Of a stretch of 22,012 nt of DNA, positions 5,223 through 14,813 are shown in pieces. The notes under the pieces are model-generated. The model did not search any database, was not told the DNA's origin, and saw only the letters and a program-made list of their open reading frames with translations. Every line of letters starts with the position of its first letter. Positions within the stretch are counted from its first letter, which is position 1. The position numbers were made by a program, and so were the translations under genes. The stretch covers positions 1-22,012 of the IMG/VR virus record IMGVR_UViG_3300040801_003600, one strand, 5' to 3'. Origin of the DNA: a virus.

Positions 5223-5924
5223 CTAGCCCTCGATTTCCTGCTTGGCCCACTCCTTCGCGAAGTTGACGTAGGTCAGGAAGGCGCCAGCGGTGGACTCGGC
5301 ATACCCAAGCTCATCCGCCATCTTACGGGCAAGAGCCTTGCGGCCGAGACCCTGGTTGGTACGGATGAAGGACACCGTCTCGGAGAGCGGAACGGTCGCA
5401 GCGGCACGCCCGGTGCTGAGGCCGAGCTCGCGAGTCGCCCTGGAGTACGCCGAAGCTGCCGTGTTGGCAGTATAGCCCATCTCCTCTTCCAGGGCAGTCT
5501 TGACTTCCTTGGAGGTCTTGCCGCTGTCCAGCATCTCCTTGACGAACTTGACCATGTCCTCGAGGCTGGTACGCTTGATCTGCGGCAGCTCGATGTCGTT
5601 GTCTTCGCAGTACTTGCGGACATGAGCCGCAGCAGTGGCCTCACTGACATCGAAGCGATCCGCAATGGCCGTCACGATATCGCGCCGCGTCTCGACCTCG
5701 ATGAAATCTTCCGCGGTGTAGTCGGCGAGATACTCATTCACTTCCTTGTTACGCTCAGCCGCCCCAAGGATCAGGCCAGCCGCCTTGGCCATGCTTTGAT
5801 AGTCCCGGACAGCCTGGGTGACACTGAGACCGCCCTCAGTGACCAGCTTCATGATGGTGTCGTCTTTGCCAAGACCCTCTTCACGCGCTGCGTTGAAGAT
5901 AGCGAGATTTGCATCGTTCGTCAT
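5223..5924 (-). CDS. Four-repeat helix-turn-helix-like protein (233 aa)
   Basis: The start is set at ATG 5924, six bases after an AAGGTG ribosome site; a GTG at 5933 would add three residues. The protein consists of four degenerate copies of a 40-50 residue helical unit at about residues 7-51, 76-112, 121-169 and 181-228. Each has an 'h-x2-hh ... G-hs-x-s/t-TA-x3-h-x3' pattern: LSVTQAVRDY, VSEATAAAHVRKY, YTANTAASAYSRA and YAESTAGAFLTYV are the equivalent recognition-helix segments. This looks like tandem HTH DNA-binding domains. Its promoter region contains an iteron-like sequence that also occurs as an array at 13.2-13.4 kb, so autoregulation or origin binding is plausible. A shorter relative lies at 12766-13083. 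The specific function is unknown. Confidence 0.75.
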   Translation of the reverse strand: MTNDANLAIFNAAREEGLGKDDTIMKLVTEGGLSVTQAVRDYQSMAKAAGLILGAAERNKEVNEYLADYTAEDFIEVETRRDIVTAIADRFDVSEATAAAHVRKYCEDNDIELPQIKRTSLEDMVKFVKEMLDSGKTSKEVKTALEEEMGYTANTAASAYSRATRELGLSTGRAAATVPLSETVSFIRTNQGLGRKALARKMADELGYAESTAGAFLTYVNFAKEWAKQEIEG

Positions 5925-5946
5925 GTCATTCACCTTTTTACATTGG

Positions 5947-5982
5947 AGAGTATATTATACTCTGCTTTTTACGAAAAGGGAA
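5947..5982 (-). promoter_or_regulatory. Promoter-like region of the HTH-repeat gene with 17-bp palindrome
   Basis: On the reverse strand a perfect TATAAT lies at 5959-5954, with a weak -35 (TTCCCT, 5982-5977) 17 bp upstream. The -10 box sits inside a perfect 17-bp palindrome, AGAGTATA-T-TATACTCT, at 5947-5963, which would allow a repressor to cover it. The start codon is 30 bp downstream. An iteron-like stretch lies a further 25 bp upstream (6002-6020). Confidence 0.55.
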
Positions 5983-6001
5983 CTAAAAGTTTTCTATAGC
6001 T

Positions 6002-6020
6002 ACATAGATTTTTCTTATAG
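6002..6020. repeat. Single iteron-like element (copy A)
   Basis: The segment reads ATAGATTTTTCTTAT on the + strand (core 6007-6018). The same GATTTTTCTTAT core occurs at 13389-13400 in the tandem array, and AATTTTTCTTAT at 8746-8757 in the divergent promoter region. It lies upstream of the promoter for the HTH-repeat gene, followed immediately by a CCCCCTTGGG copy of the dispersed motif. Confidence 0.5.
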
Positions 6021-7173: not shown

Positions 7174-7434
7174 CTACCAGTATCGAATGTTAACGTTGTG
7201 CTCTCTAGGCTGCATTGCGGCAGCTGCGGCAGCATTAGCATTAGCGCTGGCACGCTTTTGTGCTTGGTCATTTTGAACACAGTATGCAAAGCTTGCTGAA
7301 CCTTGTTCAAAGCCATAAGCTTTACAAGCTTCTATACTGCGCGCAATAGACTCAGGAGTGCCCGTCATAGGAGGAATAGTAATGCATCCCCCAAGAAAGC
7401 TAGACAGAATAATGATAGCTACAGATTTAGTCAT
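7174..7434 (-). CDS. Small secreted lipoprotein
   Basis: This 86-aa product has a lipoprotein signal peptide: MTKSV, a hydrophobic IIILSSFL stretch and the lipobox LGGC with Cys 17 as the lipidated residue. The next residues (ITIPPMTG) give no Asp at +2, so outer-membrane sorting is expected. The mature part has the ACKAYGFEQGSASFAYCVQND pattern, two cysteines flanking a G-F-x-x-G-S core that recurs in short bacterial envelope lipoproteins, and an Ala/Asn-rich tail. GAGGAA precedes the ATG. It is placed in the early - strand operon rather than beside lysis genes, which favours superinfection exclusion or envelope alteration over a spanin role; this is inference. Confidence 0.75.
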   Translation of the reverse strand: MTKSVAIIILSSFLGGCITIPPMTGTPESIARSIEACKAYGFEQGSASFAYCVQNDQAQKRASANANAAAAAAMQPREHNVNIRYW

Positions 7435-7472: not shown

Positions 7473-8459
7473 CTAGCTTAATGGAGGTAATGACTGACGA
7501 ATTGATTCGCTAGCTTTAGTGATAGCTACGAACTTTTCATCAGTGCCACCTTTGTCAGGATGATTTTGTTGGCGGGCTGCTTTGACAAGGCCAGCGAGCG
7601 CAGAGTCGCTGATTCTGTCAATATAGCCATTGCCATCAATCTCAATTCCTAAGAGTAGGAATGCGTCAGCCAATACATGCTTTGGCTTGTGCTTTGGCTT
7701 CTCGGTTTTCTCTTCCTTGGGTTCCTGGCCGCGAAGAACCTGGATTCCGCTCCACGTATTCTTGTGCAGCGTGCAGATCCAGATAGTCTCTTGGCCATTG
7801 AGCATCGTCTCAGGGAACTTGAGCGTGTGTGCTTCCTTGAATTTCTCGCTCCCAAGTTCCGCCGCCATGTCCTCGATCTTCTCAATGATGAACTCAGGTA
7901 TGTTATCATCATACTTGAAGGTGAGGAGATCATCTTCCACTTCAGCCGTGCGCTGCTTGTGCTGCTTATCCTTAGCTTGCTCTTGCTCCTTTTTATCTGC
8001 GCGTAAAGAACGCTTGAAGTCTTCAATTTCTTCACGCTTTGTTTCGGCATGAATTAGCTTGAGTGAGATAGCTTGAGCTAACTCGTCGTCTGTAAGCCGT
8101 GCAATCTCTGAGAGAGTTCGCATGGAAGCAGGAAGCTCATCTTCCCGCGGGAAGACGGTAGCTAGTCTGGTGGCAATTAGCTGCCCAGCTGCTACCCAAT
8201 TACTTACAGTAGTATCGGAATAGCCTAGCCAAGCTTCACAACTGCTTGTGAAGTATTGTTTAGCAGCACGTGGAAGACCGTCGACTTCATGTGCGTCGCA
8301 TGCACAGCGGAATTCATAAAGTTCACGTGCATGGCGGAACAGCCACTCCCTGGACTTTTGCTTACCGCCAACCAGAATCTTCTTCCATTTAGACTCAAAG
8401 GCTTTGAACTCCTTACTTTGCTGGAGCTCAACTTGGGCTTGTGTGACAACGTCGTTCAT
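7473..8459 (-). CDS. Replication-associated protein with C-terminal J-domain (DnaJ-like)
   Basis: This 328-aa protein ends in a J-domain-like segment from about residue 262: helix LADAFLLLGIE, then ALAGLVKAARQQ, the invariant HPD at 300-302 within NHPDKGGTDEKF, and a final AITKASESIRQSL helix. HPD is the motif by which J-domains stimulate DnaK ATPase. The N-terminal 150 residues are helical and include an HTH-like stretch (CEAWLGYSDTTVSNWVAAGQLIATRL) followed by MRTLSEIARLTDDELAQAI, resembling DUF3102/ParB-like phage DNA-binding proteins. A Lys/Glu-rich linker (150-175) and a beta segment lie between. A strong AGGAG site precedes the ATG. The protein could recruit host DnaK to phage replication or regulation; the function is inferred. 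Confidence 0.75.
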   Translation of the reverse strand: MNDVVTQAQVELQQSKEFKAFESKWKKILVGGKQKSREWLFRHARELYEFRCACDAHEVDGLPRAAKQYFTSSCEAWLGYSDTTVSNWVAAGQLIATRLATVFPREDELPASMRTLSEIARLTDDELAQAISLKLIHAETKREEIEDFKRSLRADKKEQEQAKDKQHKQRTAEVEDDLLTFKYDDNIPEFIIEKIEDMAAELGSEKFKEAHTLKFPETMLNGQETIWICTLHKNTWSGIQVLRGQEPKEEKTEKPKHKPKHVLADAFLLLGIEIDGNGYIDRISDSALAGLVKAARQQNHPDKGGTDEKFVAITKASESIRQSLPPLS

Positions 8460-8659
8460 TGCAGGCGCTCCTCTTGCTCTTCGCTGTGTATGAATTGAAT
8501 CTCTGAGATCTCAAGATCACGATTTAGCAAGTCTTGCACATATTGCTTGACTTGCTCTACATTATCAAACGTAGTAGCATTAGGTATCGTGATTATTGCC
8601 CATGCTGGTTCATGTCTGAATCCAACTTCTACGATGACTGTGTACAGTTTGTTCGTCAT
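8456..8659 (-). CDS. Hypothetical protein (67 aa), first gene of the leftward operon
   Basis: The family is not recognised. The product looks like a small alpha/beta protein: strand KLYTVIVEVGF, strand WAIITIP, helix NVEQVKQYVQDLLNRDL, and a strand-turn ISEIQFIHSEEQEERLQ. It has an acidic C-terminus and no membrane or metal motifs. Its end overlaps the J-domain gene by 4 nt (ATGA), and its start lies 34 bp downstream of the -10 box of the leftward promoter. As the promoter-proximal gene it is likely among the earliest expressed. Confidence 0.65.
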   Translation of the reverse strand: MTNKLYTVIVEVGFRHEPAWAIITIPNATTFDNVEQVKQYVQDLLNRDLEISEIQFIHSEEQEERLQ

Positions 8660-8692: not shown

Positions 8693-8721
8693 ATTATAAA
8701 GCGAATTTTTGCAAAAGTAAA
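8693..8721 (-). promoter_or_regulatory. Leftward early promoter
   Basis: On the reverse strand TTTACT (8721-8716) is separated by exactly 17 bp from TATAAT (8698-8693), a good sigma70-type promoter for the leftward operon. The palindrome TTTTGCAAAA (8707-8716) lies in the spacer and touches the -35 box, and is itself nested in the inverted repeat CGAATTTT/AAAATTCG (8702-8709 and 8719-8726). These are strong operator candidates. Confidence 0.65.
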
Positions 8722-8745
8722 ATTCGAATTTTTTATGCGCATATA

Positions 8746-8757
8746 AATTTTTCTTAT
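8746..8757. repeat. Single iteron-like element (copy B)
   Basis: AATTTTTCTTAT followed by GCTTGG. It is the same core as copy A (6007-6018) and the array unit at 13389-13400, and the array's last unit is also followed by GCTTGG. It lies between the two divergent promoters. Confidence 0.45.
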
Positions 8758-8791
8758 GCTTGGTGTTCGGCTTTGGTTAGCTATAAGGTAA

Positions 8792-8847
8792 TCTTATACT
8801 AGTATAAGAAATTTGAATTTTACTTGTGCTCCACTCTATGTTATAAT
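8792..8847 (+). promoter_or_regulatory. Rightward promoter with 18-bp palindromic operator candidate
   Basis: TTTACT (8819-8824) and TATAAT (8842-8847) are 17 bp apart on the + strand, the same -35, spacing and -10 as the leftward promoter. Immediately upstream, at 8792-8809, lies the perfect 18-bp palindrome TCTTATACTAGTATAAGA, a likely operator. The promoter drives the zinc-ribbon and primase-helicase genes, whose first start (GTG 8877) is 30 bp beyond the -10 box. Confidence 0.65.
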
Positions 8848-13185: not shown

Positions 13186-13214
13186 ATTATAGTACATACA
13201 TTTTATTTTGTACA
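13186..13214 (-). promoter_or_regulatory. Promoter of the leftward small-gene island
   Basis: On the reverse strand TGTACA (13214-13209) is 17 bp from TATAAT (13191-13186). The promoter points to the 105-aa gene, 103 bp downstream, and starts directly beside the tandem repeat array at 13230. Confidence 0.55.
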
Positions 13215-13229
13215 ATTCAATGTTTCTAT

Positions 13230-13417
13230 GTGCGTATAGATTTTATTTATACATAGCTGTACTTATGCCCATATAGATTCTACTTATACATAGCTGTGCT
13301 TATGCCCTTATAGATTCTACCTATCTATTAGTTCAGCTTATGTGCTTATTAGTTCTACCTATCCATTAGTTTTACCTATGACCACATCGATTTTTCTTAT
13401 CGATAGGTTCTACCTAT
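13230..13417. repeat. Tandem iteron-like array, five 37-38 bp units
   Basis: Five head-to-tail units are seen at 13230-13266, 13267-13303, 13304-13341, 13342-13379 and 13380-13417. Each begins with G, holds TTCTACCTAT or a close variant (TTCTACTTAT, TTTTATTTAT, TTTTTCTTAT) and ends in CTTAT or CCTAT. On the reverse strand each unit splits into two half-units resembling ATARGTAGAAYCTAT, giving about ten half-sites. The last unit contains the palindrome-like ATCGAT-TTTTCTT-ATCGAT. Related single copies lie at 6002-6020 and 8746-8757. The array separates divergent promoters; it could be an origin iteron set, an operator array or an enhancer-like site. It is not a CRISPR: repeats are adjacent with no unique spacers. 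Confidence 0.75.
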
Positions 13418-14114: not shown

Positions 14115-14813
14115 GTGAACCTGCTAGAAGAAATAAAGAAAGAAAATGCCTGGTTACGGGAAGAGCCAAGAGCCGCTCGTGATACTGTGTATAGCGGGTT
14201 GTTGGATGAAGGCTTGGCGCCGGCTATGGCTTCGTATTTTGCTAACAGTTATGAGTTCCCGGCGAAGACTAACTGGGGAATGCTAGCTGCAGACTTGGGG
14301 AGAACGTCGACAGCGCAAGATTACCCGGAGTTGTATTTCAGCAAAGGTGGTCAGCTTGGCACAGCCGACACATACGGTATTCTGGATATCGAATTAGGTC
14401 CTGGCGCGCTAGGTGGCGCCACGATACCAGAACCACCGTATGATATCTTTGTCAAGAATGACAACTCCCTGCTTCATGAATTCGGACACAAGAATTCAGC
14501 CACACTTGGGGAAGCTGACCTAGATTGGGAAAAGTCAATTGGTCAGTACACCGACCGCGCCCTCACTAACGATACCAGGCCTGTTCAGCGATACCTACCA
14601 GGTGGTAGCCGTTCTGGCCAACCTGGGCATAGTCCGTGGGCTGATCTAGTCATGGAAGATATGACAATGCCCAGAGGCCAGCGAGTTTGGGATAAATACC
14701 CCGAGCTGTTCCCTACTGACAAGGAGAAGTCGGCCTTCCTCTATCATGCCTACGGTAAGACTCCGCAGATGTCTGCCGACCCTAGATCCTGGTGGGAACG
14801 CCTGTTCCGATGA
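14115..14813 (+). CDS. HExxH metallopeptidase-like protein in the packaging operon
   Basis: This 232-aa protein starts at GTG 14115. It carries LLHEFGHKN at residues 119-127, the HExxH zinc-binding motif of metallopeptidases with His 121, Glu 122 and His 125. A third ligand is likely in the downstream DLVMEDMTMPRG region with its acidic residues. An ELYFSKGGQLGTADTYGILDIELG segment precedes it, and the C-terminus is aromatic and basic (RSWWERLFR). No signal peptide is seen, so it acts in the cytosol or in the virion. Position between the two terminase genes is unusual. Prohead maturation, virion peptidoglycan cleavage or processing of a host protein are possible. Motif evident; substrate unknown. 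Confidence 0.65.
   Translation: MNLLEEIKKENAWLREEPRAARDTVYSGLLDEGLAPAMASYFANSYEFPAKTNWGMLAADLGRTSTAQDYPELYFSKGGQLGTADTYGILDIELGPGALGGATIPEPPYDIFVKNDNSLLHEFGHKNSATLGEADLDWEKSIGQYTDRALTNDTRPVQRYLPGGSRSGQPGHSPWADLVMEDMTMPRGQRVWDKYPELFPTDKEKSAFLYHAYGKTPQMSADPRSWWERLFR

Follow-up and report, generated by a model that had tools for sequence, protein, structure and literature searches.

A phage protein that joins a ParA-partner-like N-terminal module to an atypical C-terminal J-domain

Phage lambda and plasmid P1 were the systems in which chaperones were first found to act at replication origins, and there host DnaJ picks the target. DnaK and DnaJ act on replication initiation in lambda, in plasmid P1 (RepA) and in Vibrio chromosome 2 (RctB) (PMC5395669). 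Phages may also encode a J-domain themselves, as with Rki of phage RB43, whose J-domain works with host DnaK and matters for phage growth (PMC3486835). Rki has also been examined by swapping its J-domain into DnaJ for rescue of an E. coli dnaJ cbpA djlA triple mutant. Given functional Rki and the presence of J-proteins in many phage contigs, the premise of an initial annotation of the DNA described here, that phages borrow host DnaJ/DnaK instead of encoding a J-domain, is wrong as a generality. J-proteins are not rare in phages, and several are encoded beside replication genes. Known precedents also include DNA-binding J-proteins (CbpA) and J-domains within viral replication proteins (T antigens). 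The unusual feature of the protein examined in this study, designated P0001, is its fusion of a DNA-binding-type N-terminal part to a C-terminal J-domain, not the phage-borne J-domain itself.

The window analysed is one IMG/VR virus record, a linear fragment of 22,012 bp. P0001 is encoded by an undecayed ORF of 328 codons that begins with ATG, with a plausible Shine-Dalgarno sequence (AGAGGAG) located 8 nucleotides ahead of the start codon. This gene had been described as the second of a leftward operon, which agrees with its position after a gene for a 67-amino-acid protein, with which it shares an ATGA overlap, and with a predicted promoter at 8693–8721 that is sigma-70-like and near-consensus. 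The product of the 67-amino-acid gene (8456–8659) yielded no Pfam match and a weak PHROG match alone, and its relatives were not found. Just downstream of the P0001 gene, within the replication operon, a small ORF (7174–7434) carries a lipoprotein-like signal at its start (ILSSFLGGC). The features of the locus are listed below.

7473–8459, minus strand: P0001 gene, encoding the 328-amino-acid fusion protein (ORF listing, translation)
8456–8659, minus strand: first gene of the operon, 67 amino acids (ORF list)
8693–8721, minus strand: predicted operon promoter, TTTACT-17-TATAAT (10 of 12 consensus matches)
8733–8757, no strand assigned: 25-bp element upstream of the operon promoter, common to the 13.2-kb array (PWM)
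8154–8270, minus strand: HTH-like predicted helix pair, residues 64–102, FTSSCEAWLGYSDTTVSNWVAAG (weak HTH_17 match, model)
7965–8276, minus strand: module homologous to DUF3102-type ParA partners, residues 62–165 (HMM, hhalign)
7926–8036, minus strand: long charged helix, probable coiled coil, residues 142–178 (full-length AlphaFold2 model)
7734–7895, minus strand: small predicted alpha-beta-beta-beta domain, residues 189–242 (AlphaFold2 pLDDT about 80–89)
7686–7727, minus strand: K/P-rich flexible linker, residues 245–258 (pLDDT <50 at 249–258)
7491–7682, minus strand: J-domain, residues 260–323 (tblastn, profile score, fold model, Foldseek)
7554–7562, minus strand: HPD motif, residues 300–302 (translation, residue mapping)

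Searches of Pfam, NCBIfam and PDB sequences with whole P0001 returned neither a J-domain family nor a family for its N-terminal part. The Pfam DnaJ model (PF00226) did not report P0001 at E-values up to 10, nor in a six-frame search, and thus the protein fails the gathering score for this family. P0001 is nevertheless detected by a phage-specific J profile built from 18 phage J-domains with P0001 excluded, which scores 47.5 bits at residues 260–323, whereas none of 20,000 shuffles exceeds 18.3 bits; the 18 rows are not fully independent because they were collected by similarity to the P0001 J region. Several of these rows pass Pfam DnaJ unaided. When P0001 is included in the profile, the best PDB matches are J-domains, with DnaJ, Sis1, CbpA, SV40 large T and Tim14 among the proteins recovered. 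Similarly, tblastn with residues 257–328 matches J-proteins encoded by two Aeromonas phages, AS-zj and Asswx_1 (E 3e-4). The Asswx_1 protein passes Pfam DnaJ unaided, and a viral DnaJ is 43% identical to the J region. PHROG 13942 matches residues 281–323 (E 2.8e-4), but its model also gives matches in 12 of 14 control genomes. Shuffled versions of P0001 contain HPD in 1.9% of cases and HPD[KR]GG in 0.001%, and a chance occurrence of the motif is ruled out by the phage-J profile score. Judged by sequence, residues 260–323 are an atypical but genuine J-domain.

The order of elements in this domain is helix I, a 7-residue insert, helix II, the HPD loop and helix III, with no helix IV. An AlphaFold2 model of residues 250–328 places helices at 260–269, 285–298 and 307–323 with a mean pLDDT of 79, although this model is not independent of its alignment, in which the remaining rows are J-domains. 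Structure prediction had been proposed as a check of this region, and the helix II-HPD-helix III hairpin is present with pLDDT >90; likewise, the intact HPD motif reported earlier is found at residues 300–302 between the second and third of these helices. Foldseek ranks Tim14 and the polyomavirus T-antigen J-domain as top matches to the J model (probability 1.00, TM 0.61), but with weak E-values (0.09–0.13) for this very small fold.

Positions that matter in J-domains tested previously were taken from PMC1906734 and mapped onto P0001. Seven of the eight are kept or conservatively replaced, including the HPD motif, Tyr7 (F267), Leu10 (L270), Lys26 (K293), Arg36 (K303), Phe47 (F310) and Leu57 (I320). 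Helix I carries the conserved Leu10 within an LLLG sequence that aligns with phage J-domains, and K293 and F310 supply the basic residue at position 26 and the large hydrophobic residue at position 47. The exception is Tyr25, which is required in tested J-domains (PMC1906734) and corresponds to V292. This substitution lowers our confidence in J-domain activity, although Tyr25 is not an absolute criterion for the family. Helix II also presents a thin basic surface, with A289 and A294 replacing R22 and R27.

These departures raise the alternative that the J-domain is a relic from which DnaK activation has been lost. The valine at position 25, the 7-residue insertion that separates helix I from helix II and the silence of Pfam DnaJ would agree with such a history. 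However, the core helices are preserved, as are the HPD motif, Phe47 and the lysine at position 26, and the ORF is undecayed, making a relic very unlikely in our estimation.

The initial annotation described the N-terminal part of P0001 as HTH-like. By itself this description is weak, as HTH_17 matches with E = 0.014 and the helix pair (64–77 and 85–102) comes from a low-confidence AlphaFold2 model. The region is solid, however, as a homologue of plasmid ParA partners. A search of plasmids with P0001 led to a DUF3102 protein adjoining ParA, and an HMM of six such plasmid proteins, traced from one weak P0001 match but excluding P0001 from the profile, scores 45.8 bits on residues 62–165, whereas none of 10,000 shuffles exceeds 16.4 bits. 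Comparison of this segment with the plasmid family by hhalign gives a probability of 97.3 and an E-value of 2.5e-11. P0001 was not reported by Pfam scans at the gathering score for DUF3102 (PF11300), and ParA (PF13614) is absent from the 22-kb record, which is itself a fragment.

In all six alphaproteobacterial plasmids read (L015 and L174–L178), the DUF3102-type protein is encoded directly after ParA. This arrangement suggests that the proteins constitute an uncharacterised ParB-equivalent family; the literature searched contains no description of DUF3102 proteins binding a centromere-like DNA site. The natural reading of residues 62–165 is a partition-type DNA-binding module.

A search based on Sak4 led to a related phage contig (L094), whereas a primase-based search for closely related phages found none. 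L094 encodes a 244-amino-acid homologue of the N-terminal module (E 7e-11) that has no J-domain. The gene for this homologue is flanked by those for a DnaQ-type exonuclease and a dUTPase, and a DNA polymerase III alpha-like gene lies downstream of it (the names dUTPase and DNA polymerase III alpha-like were assigned by reading translations). DNA binding by P0001 is likely because of the homology to plasmid ParA partners together with this J-less homologue in a phage replication operon. The same L094 module also contains a homologue (E 5e-8) of a 236-amino-acid protein encoded at 5223–5933 of the window, which has weak HTH-like matches.

The full-length AlphaFold2 model of P0001 is poor in the N-terminal part (pTM 0.30), and Foldseek found no convincing match in this model for the N-terminal or alpha/beta (189–242) parts. 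The combination of a DNA-binding-type N-terminal part with a C-terminal J-domain, as first annotated, is backed by two separate homology results and by fold prediction. Full-length homologues of P0001 were not found among the phages, plasmids, IMG/VR records and GTDB genomes searched, and the collections and literature searched yielded no phage protein that combines a C-terminal J-domain with a module of ParA-partner type. The fusion therefore appears to be new, though phage J-proteins are known, and it is represented by one sequence.

The surroundings of the P0001 gene resemble the replication modules of Septimatrevirus, Titanvirus and Cronobacter phage Ss1. Within the window, a RepB/DUF3987 primase-helicase is encoded rightward, and DUF7173, Sak4, a Cas4-type exonuclease and a helicase are encoded leftward. 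Genes for a RusA-like resolvase, terminase, portal and major head protein lie beyond these replication genes. An ORF just upstream of the terminase gene (14115–14813) has a metallopeptidase-like HEFGH (HExxH) motif and no PHROG match. A role as a folding or assembly cochaperone for virion proteins has been proposed for jumbo-phage J-proteins (PMC7824862), but P0001 has a DNA-binding-type N-terminus and is encoded in the replication half of the record, in the direction opposite to the structural genes, such that we consider a virion role highly improbable.

Seven TATAAT boxes occur in the window, and all four of the intergenic ones have a 25-bp element (ATAAGAAAAATCTATANGCGCATAG-like) exactly 34 nucleotides upstream of the -10 box (sites 5954–6018, 8693–8757, 8783–8847 and 13186–13250). 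The elements at these promoters score 30.1, 29.6, 20.5 and 9.6, relative to a 99.9% quantile of 6.2, and the copy at 8733–8757 accounts for the value of 29.6 bits (null maximum 21.3). The pairing of TATAAT with this element has the appearance of a class of phage promoters at which a regulator binds, with its site centred near -59. In addition, a divergent intergenic region carries five tandem 37–38 bp AT-rich repeats (13217–13404) with the 25-bp element, near the low of cumulative GC skew; this array could possibly be an operator array or an origin. Imperfect inverted symmetry of 47 nucleotides, with small palindromes AAATTCGAATTTT and CTTATACTAGTATAAG, is present in the divergent promoter region at 8711–8829. 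The exact element was not found in other viral contigs, nor was a similar repeat array found in L094. The element was considered as the binding site of P0001, but this assignment was dropped because nothing indicates which protein binds it.

These repeats bear on a second alternative, in which the J-domain would act in cis on its own N-terminal module, much as DnaJ/DnaK activates P1 RepA and RctB for origin binding, with P0001 active without host DnaJ. DnaJ/DnaK is known to promote DNA binding by iteron initiators (PMC5395669), and the 25-bp element is present both in the P0001 promoter region and in the five-fold array of 37–38 bp repeats at 13.2 kb. However, no observation connects P0001 with the element, which other phage or host proteins could bind, and we find such self-remodelling doubtful.

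Among six viral contigs scanned for the neighbours of J-genes, a small and hand-picked sample rather than a test of enrichment, four have a J-gene adjoining replication genes. The adjoining genes encode a primase and a DNA ligase in L056, DNA helicases in L064 (with a DNA polymerase next but one), a DNA polymerase in L050 and a processivity factor in L032. The J-genes of L052 and L061 have no adjoining replication gene among the neighbours scanned. An Eggerthella phage record also has a J-gene after helicase and primase genes. Separately, L017 encodes an SNF2-type helicase (1067–2596) that ends in an HPD-containing hairpin resembling a J-domain without helix I, and similar C-terminal hairpins close several other short phage proteins.

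The observations on P0001 comprise two homologies, a fold prediction, and the setting of its gene in an operon and a replication module. From these we infer DNA binding, DnaK activation and the nature of the target complex, and we give about even chances to the reading that P0001 is made early and serves as an adaptor, bringing DnaK to DNA-bound phage complexes. Such recruitment would follow logically from the joining of a DNA-binding-type part to a J-domain. The most likely target of the N-terminal module would be phage DNA itself or a phage complex on DNA, and the coiled coil, small alpha/beta domain and flexible linker would display the C-terminal J-domain. The latter would most likely bind host DnaK-ATP and trigger ATP hydrolysis where the N-terminus sits. 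In this way DnaK would reach replication or regulatory complexes of the phage with no need for host DnaJ in targeting. The action would be like that of host DnaJ/DnaK on lambda P and plasmid RepA, except that the J-domain would be part of the phage protein itself.

The adaptor reading is favoured by a promoter class common to the P0001, Sak4 and primase operons, by the replication context of the J-less L094 homologue and by other phage J-proteins encoded beside replication genes. Against it we count the replacement of Tyr25 by Val292, the thin basic surface of helix II, the low quality of the full-length model at the N-terminus and the lack of a full-length homologue. The L094 homologue also demonstrates that the N-terminal module manages without a J-domain in another phage, and just four of the six other J-loci, hand-picked as they were, adjoin a replication gene.

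The main rival to the adaptor reading is a global effect like that of Rki, in which an early J-domain would engage host DnaK throughout the cell (for example by stabilising sigma-32 or titrating DnaK) while the N-terminal part autoregulates or is incidental. Rki is early, depends on its J-domain, is no generic cochaperone and stabilises sigma-32 (PMC3486835), and the P0001 gene likewise occupies the second place in an operon whose promoter is near-consensus. However, when pseudotevenvirus J-proteins are compared with P0001, the J region alone aligns and no similarity to the Rki family was found beyond it. Moreover, the N-terminal module is of ParA-partner ancestry, and its J-less homologue in L094 is encoded in a replication operon. 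We therefore regard host takeover of this type as possible but unlikely.

A more specific form of the adaptor reading holds that an initiator-like or partition-type DNA-binding phage protein has captured a J-domain and uses it to place DnaK directly on sites in phage DNA (possibly the 25-bp element found in the 13.2-kb array and upstream of the P0001 promoter), making replication or early transcription independent of targeting by host DnaJ. This specific form is speculative, and we judge it unlikely. A phage protein in which a partition-type module carries its own J-domain would offer a compact and testable example of how a chaperone can be directed to DNA. It would also suggest that J-domains serve phages as portable tags, reused for recruitment on proteins of the replication module.

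Among known systems, Rki (gp057w) of RB43 and its pseudotevenvirus relatives resemble P0001 as early phage-encoded J-domain proteins with an HPD[KR]GG-type loop, but their J-domain is N-terminal, the remainder is unrelated and a DNA-binding module is not described. The plasmid DUF3102-type proteins encoded after ParA (Azospirillum, Roseomonas, Skermanella and Acetobacter) are homologous to P0001 over residues 62–165, but they lack a J-domain, whereas the 22-kb fragment encoding P0001 lacks a partner ParA. The closest J-domain in the alignment (37% identical, with LADAxLLLG of helix I in common) belongs to a J and zinc-motif protein of a viral contig (L056:2444–2794), which is encoded between primase and DNA ligase genes and differs in its length of 117 amino acids, its N-terminal J-domain, its CXXCXGXG motif and its lack of the N-terminal module. 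PHROG 9210 and PHROG 13942 are phage families with J-like stretches that match P0001 weakly, but have other partner regions and no assigned function. E. coli CbpA is a J-domain protein that binds DNA (PMC4063869), as we propose for P0001, but with an N-terminal J-domain, a DnaJ-type C-terminal part and no HTH. Large T antigen of SV40 and polyomavirus is a viral DNA-binding replication protein with a J-domain whose fold is among the top matches, but this J-domain is N-terminal, the protein is a helicase and the host is eukaryotic, so the likeness is one of analogy only. Finally, lambda P and P1 RepA, together with host DnaJ-DnaK, exemplify the chaperone action on replication initiation complexes that is proposed for P0001, but these proteins need host DnaJ and have no J-domain of their own.
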